A stretch of 64,000 nucleotides of DNA, from positions 1 through 64,000 of the forward strand of contig CAMWCA010000007.1 in assembly GCA_947172705.1 (NCBI GenBank), read 5' to 3'. This DNA comes from an uncultured Lachnospiraceae bacterium (GTDB lineage Bacteria; Bacillota; Clostridia; Lachnospirales; Lachnospiraceae). This document shows, one piece after another, positions 2,661 through 37,292 of this stretch. The first letter of the stretch is position 1. Each line of letters begins with the position of its first letter. The position numbers and the translations under genes were made by a program. Below the pieces are notes generated by a model. It searched no databases. It saw only the letters and a list, made by a program, of their open reading frames with translations, and was not told the origin of the DNA.

Positions 2661-2666
2661 CAGTCC

Positions 2667-2977
2667 AGCCCTGCCGCAAGGAGCAGAAGCCTATCAGCAG
2701 CCTGGCTTTGCACCTGGGGGACATACATCCTTTCCAGACTTGTCTACGAATTGGATTTCACTAACAGAATGCGGGAAAATTTTCAAGCCGGTCGGGTCAG
2801 AGCCAGCGGCATCCGTGCCGCGAGGCTCTTAAAACCGCCGTCCTGGCGGTTTTGCCCTCGTTATAGGAGCATTCTGTAAGTGAAATTGCCAATTCTCCGC
2901 CAAAGCCTGGAAAGGATGTATGTCCCCCAGGTGCAAAGTCAGGCTGCTGATAGGCTTCTGCTCCTTGCGGCAGGGCT
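2667..2977. repeat. Giant hairpin 1: 71-nt arms (2667-2737 / 2907-2977, 70/71 complementary) enclosing structured core 2749-2894
   Basis: Direct reading: left arm agccctgccgcaaggagcagaagcctatcagcagcctggctttgcacctgggggacatacatcctttccag is the reverse complement of the right arm except at one position. Confidence 0.95.
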
Positions 2978-3016
2978 TAACTACAATGGTTTATCTATTT
3001 GAAAAAGCCGAGAACA

Positions 3017-8048: not shown

Positions 8049-8581
8049 TTTTTGTCCCTTTCTTTCGTTAATTCTTTTTCAAAATTTTCTTCCCATTTTT
8101 CCAGAGTTTCTAAAAGCAGAAATTGTTGTTCCAGTATAGTCCGTCCAAATAATGGAATATCCTTATGCAGGGGCAGCTGTTCCATAATCTGCATTTTGGT
8201 GTTTTGAATGCTGTTTTTAATATTGGCGATACATTCATCTGCAAAGGCTTCGTCAACCAACGCCATATTTACGATCACGGCATTAAAATCTAAAAATACC
8301 CTTGTTTCAGCTACGGAAAACCTGGTCATCAATTCATGAAAAACTTCTTTTCCCTTTGGCGTTATGGTGTACAATGTTTTTTCAGGCATATTGCCATTTC
8401 TGACCGTCTCGCTGACAACATATCCTTTGGCTTCAAATTGAACCACTTTCTTGTAAACGGTAAAAGAACCGATTTTTATCCATCTTGACAGGTTCCGGGC
8501 TTCAATTTGTTTTTGTAGATCATATGCGCTTTTAGGGCTTTGGCATAACGAGCCTAGAAGAATCAGATCAATCGCAGACAT
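8045..8581 (-). CDS. PadR family transcriptional regulator
   Basis: ILLGSLCQSPKSAYDLQKQIEARNLSRWIKIGSFTVYKKVVQFEAKGYV...TITPKGKEVF, winged-helix PadR pattern. Confidence 0.85.
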   Translation of the reverse strand: MSAIDLILLGSLCQSPKSAYDLQKQIEARNLSRWIKIGSFTVYKKVVQFEAKGYVVSETVRNGNMPEKTLYTITPKGKEVFHELMTRFSVAETRVFLDFNAVIVNMALVDEAFADECIANIKNSIQNTKMQIMEQLPLHKDIPLFGRTILEQQFLLLETLEKWEENFEKELTKERDKK

Positions 8582-8599
8582 ATTTTATCATCCTCTCAT

Positions 8600-8635
8600 A
8601 TTACTGTATTATATAATACTGTATTATGCAGTAAT
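8600..8635. promoter_or_regulatory. Palindromic candidate PadR operator
   Basis: attactgtattatataatactgtattatgcagtaat immediately upstream of the padR-like start; nested inverted repeats attactg/cagtaat. Confidence 0.6.
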
Positions 8636-8813
8636 TATGAAATTTGTCAAGTATGAAAATCTGTATTTAATCTGCAAAATTTTGTCTGATAGGGGTACTT
8701 TTTCAAATCAGAATAATTTTGTGGTACAGGTTGTATTTTTTTTGTGTTTAGAATATAATAAAAATGTGATTAAATACACATTAATACTAATAAAAGTGTG
8801 AAAAGAGGCATCT

Positions 8814-21140: not shown

Positions 21141-21240
21141 ATCTTTATAACTAAAGATATGAAATTCCCCCTTAATTTATATTCTTAAATTTTAAAAAGC
21201 TTTCATTACCACTAACATGAGAATATCTGGAAACAGCGAG

Positions 21241-21555
21241 AGTGTGGGCAGGGGATTACAGGGAAGGAGGGAGGAGGGGTGGGCAAAGGGATGGCAAAGG
21301 GCAATGGGGTTCCAGGGCTTTAGCGAGAAATTGGCAATTTCACTTACGGAATGGAGAAATCCCAGGGTGATTCCGCCATGGAGGGTGGAATCAGGAGCCA
21401 CGCGGCACGGATGCCGCCGGCTCCGACCCGTCCAGTTATCGACACCCTTTCCCATTCCGTTAGTGAAATCCAATTTCGAGATCAGCCCTGGAACCCCATT
21501 GCCCTTTGCCACCCCTTTGCCCACCCCTCCTTCCCTGTAATCCCCTGCCCACACT
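21241..21555. repeat. Giant hairpin 2: arms 21241-21319 / 21484-21555 (one mismatch, one 7-nt indel) enclosing core 21329-21475, homologous to hairpin 1 core in inverse orientation
   Basis: agtgtgggcaggggattacagggaagg... vs reverse complement of ...ccttccctgtaatcccctgcccacact; core shares aattggatttcactaac(a/g)gaatg and gcggcatccgtgccgcg with hairpin 1. Confidence 0.95.
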
Positions 21556-21590
21556 CCCACCCCCTCCCAACTAAATTTTCCCCACCCCTC

Positions 21591-21617: not shown

Positions 21618-21780
21618 ATATATTGCAGGCATTACCGGCCATAATACCTGCAAAATATCGTTGATTAAGTCGCCACGGATGGTATACCTTAGGGAAACGG
21701 ACAGCCCTTTTGTATATCATTTTTGTTTTTTTCAACCAAGGAGGGGAGAATAAAGCAAGGGACGAAAAGAAGGAGGAAGA

Positions 21781-22932
21781 ATGCGAGTAAATTCCAGCGC
21801 AATTGGAATGGAGTCCAACAGAAGATACTCTTCCTTTACAGGAAGGGCAACGAGAGTTACGATCAGTAACAGCAGGCAGAAGCTGACGGATGGAACCGGT
21901 TTTTTGTCTGGAAATGCACTGAACTCCGGTGTGAATGGTGGGAAAAAGCAGACAGCTTTAAGGTCAAGCTTTGACGAACTGCGTTCCAGGAAAAATGCCC
22001 TTACATCCGGAAACATTCGCAGTGCAGATGCCGCAAGCGCGCATGAACAGTTTATGGAGATCAGGCAGCAGTGCCTTAATTTCCTGATGGCAATACTTTT
22101 CCCACAGAGAAGAAGAGACATGAGCTGGGGAGAAGACATGGGCGAGGGTACAGCTTCCACAGAGGAAGCGGTGCAGTCCCAGGCAGGTGTGGGTACGAAA
22201 ACGCTTACCTTCAACACCCAGTATTACCATGAGGAAACGGAGACCACCGGATTTTCAACTACCGGAACGGTTAAATGTGCAGACGGCAGAGAAATTAATT
22301 TTAATCTGAATCTGGAGATGAGCCGCAGCTTTCAGGAATATTATGAAGAAAGCGTAAGCTATACCCAGAAGGCAATGTGCGATCCTTTGGTGATCAATCT
22401 GGATGGAAACATAGCGGATCTCTCAGATCAGACATTCCTGTTTGATTTAGACGGTGACGGACAGGAGGAGGAAATCAACCGTCTTGCCGCTGGCAGCGGT
22501 TTTCTTGCCCTGGATAAAAACGGAGACGGAATCATCAATGATGGTTCGGAGCTTTTCGGAACGAAATCGGGCAATGGGTTTGCAGATCTTGCCGCCTATG
22601 ATACGGATCATAACGGTTTCATAGACGAAGGGGACGAGATCTGGAATAAACTGAAAATCTGGGTTACGGATGAGAATGGCAATCAAAAGCTTTATTCCCT
22701 GGCGGAAAAAGGAGTTGGCGCCATCTGTCTGCAAAATGCCTCTACCAATTATGCCATTAAGGATGAGGATAATCAGACAAAAGGAATGATCCGCAAAACG
22801 GGCGTCTTCCTGTATGAGAATGGAACGGCAGGGAGCGTACAGCATGTGGATCTGGCAATCCATAACCAACAGGAGCAGGTAAGACAAAAGCAGAGCAGAT
22901 ATGCTCAGTGGGCTTACGATATGGCAATGTAA
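21781..22932 (+). CDS. EF-hand/dockerin-like calcium-loop protein of unknown function
   Basis: Repeated DLDGDGQEEE, DKNGDGIINDGSELFG, DTDHNGFIDEGDEIW loops; RBS aaggagg. Confidence 0.85.
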   Translation: MRVNSSAIGMESNRRYSSFTGRATRVTISNSRQKLTDGTGFLSGNALNSGVNGGKKQTALRSSFDELRSRKNALTSGNIRSADAASAHEQFMEIRQQCLNFLMAILFPQRRRDMSWGEDMGEGTASTEEAVQSQAGVGTKTLTFNTQYYHEETETTGFSTTGTVKCADGREINFNLNLEMSRSFQEYYEESVSYTQKAMCDPLVINLDGNIADLSDQTFLFDLDGDGQEEEINRLAAGSGFLALDKNGDGIINDGSELFGTKSGNGFADLAAYDTDHNGFIDEGDEIWNKLKIWVTDENGNQKLYSLAEKGVGAICLQNASTNYAIKDEDNQTKGMIRKTGVFLYENGTAGSVQHVDLAIHNQQEQVRQKQSRYAQWAYDMAM

Positions 22933-37082: not shown

Positions 37083-37292
37083 GCAAAATCCCCGTATCTT
37101 TATGGCGGCTGGAGCCTTCGAAAAGACATTTGTGCGAACGACTTTTGCACCATGGAGATGAGACTCAAAAAACACAGAAGCCAATGCTTCTGTGTTTTTG
37201 TATCAAGAGGCTCATCGGAATGCCCGGTGCAACGGAGCGAGCGCGAATTCTTTTCAAAGGCTCCAGCCGCCATAAAGATATGGGGATTTTGC
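37083..37292. repeat. Giant hairpin 3 between convergent genes: 44-nt arms (37083-37126 / 37249-37292, 42/44) with imperfect nested stem and apical 13-bp hairpin
   Basis: gcaaaatccccgtatctttatggcggctggagccttcgaaaaga vs reverse complement of tcttttcaaaggctccagccgccataaagatatggggattttgc; apical aaaaacacagaag-ccaatg-cttctgtgttttt. Confidence 0.93.

Follow-up and report, generated by a model that had tools for sequence, protein, structure and literature searches.

TwoAYGGAY hairpins in a Lachnospiraceae genome: a conserved RNA core in probable MITE-like elements whose arms turn over while remaining self-complementary

A 64,000-nucleotide stretch of DNA from an uncultured Lachnospiraceae bacterium (hereafter the window) contains two giant hairpins, designated hairpin 1 and hairpin 2, which resemble each other in their cores and differ in their long self-complementary arms. 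The question raised by this locus is how a palindrome can persist while the sequence that composes it changes. An earlier reading made from the letters alone (the sequence-only reading) offered two answers, namely an element whose insertion targets or generates inverted duplications of about 70 bp, or a family in which arm pairing is selected while arm sequence drifts freely.

Hairpin 2 occupies positions 21240-21556 of the window (317 nt) and forms a single fold in RNA folding, with an MFE of -240.8 kcal/mol against -119.8 +/- 5.8 kcal/mol for shuffled controls, a z-score of -20.9 that places its stability well beyond chance. Its centre (21320-21484, plus strand) is a TwoAYGGAY RNA core, which in a covariance search matched the full model (1-168) of RF01731 at 80.6 bits (gathering value 43, E = 4e-12). 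The core carries an ACGGAT terminal loop inside a GCGGC/GCCGC stem, and its other loop is degenerate (ATGGAG). The purine-rich left (5') arm of approximately 80 nt (21240-21319, plus strand) pairs with a C/pyrimidine-rich right (3') arm of approximately 72-73 nt (21485-21556, plus strand), and an inverted-repeat search resolved this pairing into two blocks, 21269-21319 with 21484-21534 at 96% and 21240-21271 with 21525-21556 at 100%. These blocks, together with the fold, bear out the self-complementary arms reported earlier; the arm length of 72 nt given with them suits the right arm (about 73 nt), whereas the left arm is longer owing to a 7-nt bulge. Transposon ends are not recognisable at hairpin 2, where they have been lost. 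About 120 bp from the element, two AYGGAY-type, CsrA-like motifs, ACGGAT (21675-21680) and ACGGAC (21697-21702), lie in a conserved leader belonging to the gene at 21781 and are kept in G009, G020, and G035.

Hairpin 1 belongs to the same family. Its core (2741-2902) matches the full RF01731 model (1-168) at 74.6 bits (gathering value 43, E = 9.6e-11) on the minus strand, and the two cores are 76% identical, confirming the homology proposed from the letters. ACGGAT forms one loop of each window copy; the second loop, which is AGGAC in hairpin 1, retains GGA in both and the full AYGGAY motif in neither. The core is flanked by one arm at 2662-2740 (minus strand), whose sequence is common to at least six other copies, and by the other at 2903-2982 (minus strand). 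An eroded transposon-type end, ATAACAGTCCAGC (consensus GTAACAGTTCAGC), lies at 2657-2669, and erosion is stronger at the opposite end (2974-2987).

The hairpin tips thus belong to the known RNA family TwoAYGGAY. The family is listed by Weinberg et al. 2010 (PMC2864571) as probably RNA and not cis-regulatory, with occurrences in the human gut, gamma-Proteobacteria, and Clostridiales. CsrA binding has been predicted from its loops (PMC4333381), and titration of CsrA by the GGA loops, as has been guessed in print, would be a possible function. The presence of csrA was discarded as an uninformative correlate of TwoAYGGAY copy number, CsrA (PF02599) being nearly everywhere (the host genome, G000, has it, as do 34 of the 38 genomes in the genus) whatever the copy number.

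A genome search of the 3.49-Mb host MAG returned 36 TwoAYGGAY copies, in 35 of which the sequence flanking the core is self-complementary over approximately 50-140 nt, the exception being cut by a contig end. Across 120 copies from four genomes (the host and three congeners), median arm length is 85 nt (range 51-169), and the two arms of a copy share a median identity of 94%; measurements are distorted in a few copies that are interrupted by N stretches or placed at contig ends. The sequence-only reading had named two outcomes that would speak against it. The first, copies mostly devoid of self-complementary arms, was not what this genus showed; the second, arms homologous across copies, was found in part. 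Hairpin 1 has arms in common with six others (L027, C15b, C12e, C32, C85, and one G035 copy), so that arms of this subfamily occur at seven different loci, whereas the arms of most copies are unalignable. The claim that arms are unrelated accordingly holds between hairpins 1 and 2, which cannot be aligned, and fails family-wide. Copy pairs with alignable arms make up 12% at a core identity of 85-90% and 36% at a core identity of at least 90%. Since arms are shared among subfamily copies yet are mostly unalignable between copies, they are part of the element, and their turnover outpaces that of the core.

Several host contigs (C76, C40, C43, C47, C25, and C14) end inside hairpin-1 subfamily copies, indicating that these repeats break the assembly and that the true copy number exceeds 36. 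Within the genus, copy number ranges from 0 to more than 38 across congeners, and in homologues from other families, inspected as a single example per genome, the arms are often short or missing. On the model strand, 98 of 124 copies have a C-rich 3' arm, and the G+C content of the arms exceeds that of their flanks. Regarding a terminator role of the arms, inspection of the host copies found no consistent T-run beyond them.

Comparison with relatives bears on the origin of the arms. The 377 bp of the host at the window site correspond to approximately 20 bp in the close relative G035, the site is also empty in G020, and arm sequence is absent from the empty site in both; the site of the C85 copy is likewise empty in three relatives. 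In G009, the same intergenic region contains a like-oriented element whose arms differ in sequence but are again self-complementary; it may have inserted independently or be an ortholog in which the arms have been replaced. If the element made or entered an inverted duplication of its target, the arms would be copies of flanking host DNA, and it would be natural for those of different copies to be mostly unrelated, as they are; moreover, in one ortholog pair about 11 bp of the left flank has been copied into the right arm, which shows that arms can grow outward. However, neither arm matches the unoccupied sites in relatives, a check that the sequence-only reading had suggested, arms travel with their core between copies of the hairpin 1 subfamily, and in copies with an 8-bp target duplication (TSD) the arms lie inside the ends. 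The proposal of an inverted duplication was therefore rejected as largely refuted by the empty sites, and we hold it to be very improbable.

Several TwoAYGGAY copies are bounded by GTAACAGTTCAG...CTGAACTGTTAC, with 8-bp target duplications. In a search reaching 220 nt from the core, an outward CTGAACTGTTAC with at most two mismatches was present on 33 of 260 copy sides, compared with 0-2 in controls (motifs and positions), mostly at a distance of 82-103 nt. For the eight copies with both ends recognisable, the flanking 8 bp match at 5.4 of 8 positions on average, against a permuted mean of 1.7 and a maximum of 3.75 in 20000 permutations; the duplications include one perfect ATAAGGAT pair and several that match at 7/8. 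Features of MITEs seen here are multiple copies, dispersal, short length, lack of coding capacity, variation between relatives, terminal inverted repeats, and a duplication fixed at 8 bp. Judged by these features, TwoAYGGAY hairpins appear to be MITE-like mobile elements, a claim that draws on a minority of copies and on the subfamily homology, with most copies, hairpin 2 included, now lacking transposon ends.

IS66 elements typically have GTAA ends and produce 8-bp duplications. One congener contig of 1824 bp constitutes a complete element, bounded by GTAACTATTCAGCC...GGCTGAATAGTTAC and encoding DDE_Tnp_IS66, and a second congener contig, which starts with GTAACAGTTCAGCC, also encodes DDE_Tnp_IS66. 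Neither the host MAG nor G020, with its 39 TwoAYGGAY copies, yielded an IS66 transposase, and we therefore infer the mobilizer from relatives: an IS66-type transposase would have moved the TwoAYGGAY elements. The 12-mer end motif is strongly over-represented in the genus and also delimits further small palindromes (29-188 bp), of which four have exact 8-bp duplications; these other palindromes gave no Rfam match except a neighbouring tRNA. Elements of 101-188 bp at loci L247, L248, L249, L250, and L251 (in G031, G008, and G019), with GTAACAGTTCAG ends, internal hairpins, and in several cases exact 8-bp duplications, are additional candidates for RNA-bearing MITE families.

How the arms stay matched can be followed by comparing orthologs. 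Arm divergence is 1-13% within a copy versus 19-46% between species orthologs (6-21% for the core), and because arms that separated before speciation are nearer each other than to their orthologs, homogenisation or constraint is needed. At eight secure orthologous sites, among which some re-insertions may be included (compare the window site, occupied in G009 and empty in G035 and G020), changes affected both arms in 143 columns and a single arm in 57; the two-arm changes comprise 70 transitions and 73 transversions. Multi-base insertions and deletions have also occurred in concert in both arms, for example at L011 and L024.

Constraint could arise if the arms belonged to an RNA (or dsRNA) with a function, their pairing being kept by purifying selection and compensatory mutation; arms are indeed nearly universal among the copies of the genus, and their GC-richness and strand asymmetry relative to the core (the C-rich 3' arm) are not obvious for a purely neutral palindrome. 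RNA pairing acting as a filter would favour G-U over A-C, which is the pattern of the core, where 18 inner pairs across 127 copies gave 1939 Watson-Crick, 219 G-U, 17 A-C, and 58 other combinations, in cells that are not independent owing to the shared ancestry of the copies. Mismatches in the outer core stem (143 G-U, 223 A-C, and 980 other) are dominated by fixed internal loops and were left out of the argument. In the arms of 130 copies, by contrast, 184 G-U and 186 A-C mismatches were counted (p = 0.96), in copies that are again not fully independent and with a symmetry that would also be expected under transcription and equal selection of both strands or under selection on a DNA hairpin. 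The signature of RNA selection thus lies in the core and not in the arms. Half of the concerted changes are transversions and some are multi-base indels, and the armless or short-armed homologues in other families likewise argue against functional arms, an explanation that we consider improbable. Selection on arm RNA pairing is accordingly disfavoured as the main cause; the earlier statement that pairing is kept while sequence drifts survives as a description, given 120 copies with arms that are mostly unalignable between copies and a median arm identity of 94%, and not in its appeal to selection.

Alternatively, a DNA hairpin or cruciform may itself be what is selected, for instance through transposase recognition or single-stranded replication, so that the palindrome is kept without copying. 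Selection of this kind would tolerate G-T and A-C alike, as the arm mismatches show, and would explain why arms are universal in copies that are still moving. Nevertheless, arms are well matched even where the ends have eroded, and concerted insertions and deletions require copying and not point-by-point compensation, which leaves this explanation with a slim chance, somewhat below that of functional RNA arms.

Copying of one arm from the other would account for these features. Template switching has been proposed for the stems of RNA genes (PMC8794818) and predicts homogenised arms along with occasional inversion of the spacer (PMC8604942). In one same-site pair, L018 of the host (G000) and C57:15725 of G035, the core is inverted between the arms. 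The combination of homogenised arms and an inverted core, as template-switch work predicts, makes template-switch copying the best-supported mechanism, and we infer both this copying route and the enzymology of arm copying.

The explanation that we favour, and regard as likely, is therefore a non-autonomous MITE-like element with an RNA-selected core, IS66-type ends, and arms homogenised by arm-to-arm template copying. Such an element of approximately 330-370 bp would consist of a TwoAYGGAY core (about 165 bp) and two self-complementary arms of about 85 bp each, with RNA-level selection acting on the core, on the Rfam strand, and not on the arms. A young element would carry terminal inverted repeats GTAACAGTTCAG, of the type found in IS66-family insertion sequences of the same genus, and an 8-bp target duplication; after insertion, its ends would erode and its arms would gather substitutions. 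One arm would then repeatedly template the other, by template switching as the DNA is replicated or by arm-to-arm conversion in a DNA hairpin, so that both arms change together and the palindrome survives despite the quick turnover of its sequence.

The arrangement of copies in the genomes also shows regularities. In the copy lists of G000, G035, G014, G020, G036, G004, and G031, 24 of 30 neighbouring copies at most 3 kb apart are head-to-head ('-+') and none is tail-to-tail ('+-') (p = 4e-10), with neighbouring copies spaced 182-2608 bp apart. With ORFs called mechanically, a gene 3' end facing the 3' side of the element lies at a median distance of 17 bp, with 50 of 61 such ends no more than 60 bp away, whereas the corresponding distance on the 5' side is 71 bp (Fisher p = 2e-4). 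The window contains other palindromes as well. A giant hairpin at 37083-37292, with 44-nt arms and a 122-nt spacer, is not TwoAYGGAY and has 24 matches in the host genome and 15 in G035; the central part of this query (62-195) is widely common in G035, and its outer arms match few copies. It would represent a second family with a core/arm split of the TwoAYGGAY type. An AT-rich overlapping palindrome with 41-nt arms (76%) lies at 8577-8648.

A broader view, which we put forward tentatively as one possibility among others, is that of a dispersed family of regulatory RNAs that multiply by transposition and whose long palindrome is preserved by template switching even as its sequence is exchanged; function would be confined to the tip, and copies would form head-to-head dyads, possibly serving as a genome-wide CsrA sink. 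The individual components are known, and their combination appears undescribed in the literature searched. Whether compensatory selection or templated copying preserves long stems is a long-standing question, for which the TwoAYGGAY family offers a natural many-copy experiment: within a single molecule, the core bears a signature of RNA selection and the arms one of DNA copying. This serves as a warning that covariation in long stems can arise without selection on pairing.

Compared with known systems, the window hairpins share with published RF01731 a full-model match far above the gathering value, a defined strand, and multiple copies in Clostridia. Mobility, transposon ends, and concerted arms of 50-170 bp are features added here to the listing of the family in PMC2864571, and none of the three was found in the literature searched for TwoAYGGAY; an orphan Rfam family thereby gains a mode of spread. 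Like bacterial MITEs (reviewed in PMC10969869), the elements are short and multi-copy, need no ORF, and have inverted terminal repeats and an 8-bp target duplication; IS66-family elements with matching ends in congeners are their candidate autonomous relatives. Unlike those MITEs, they carry as cargo a conserved structured RNA with its own selection, and the sequence between core and ends mostly turns over while remaining palindromic. With the template-switch correction of quasipalindromes (PMC8604942, PMC8794818), they have in common arm homogenisation, spacer inversion, transversion-rich concerted changes, and an asymmetric base composition of the stem. However, the published quasipalindromes mostly involve short arms or isolated events, whereas in TwoAYGGAY the arms are about 85 bp long and the process extends over a whole dispersed family and reaches species-level divergence.
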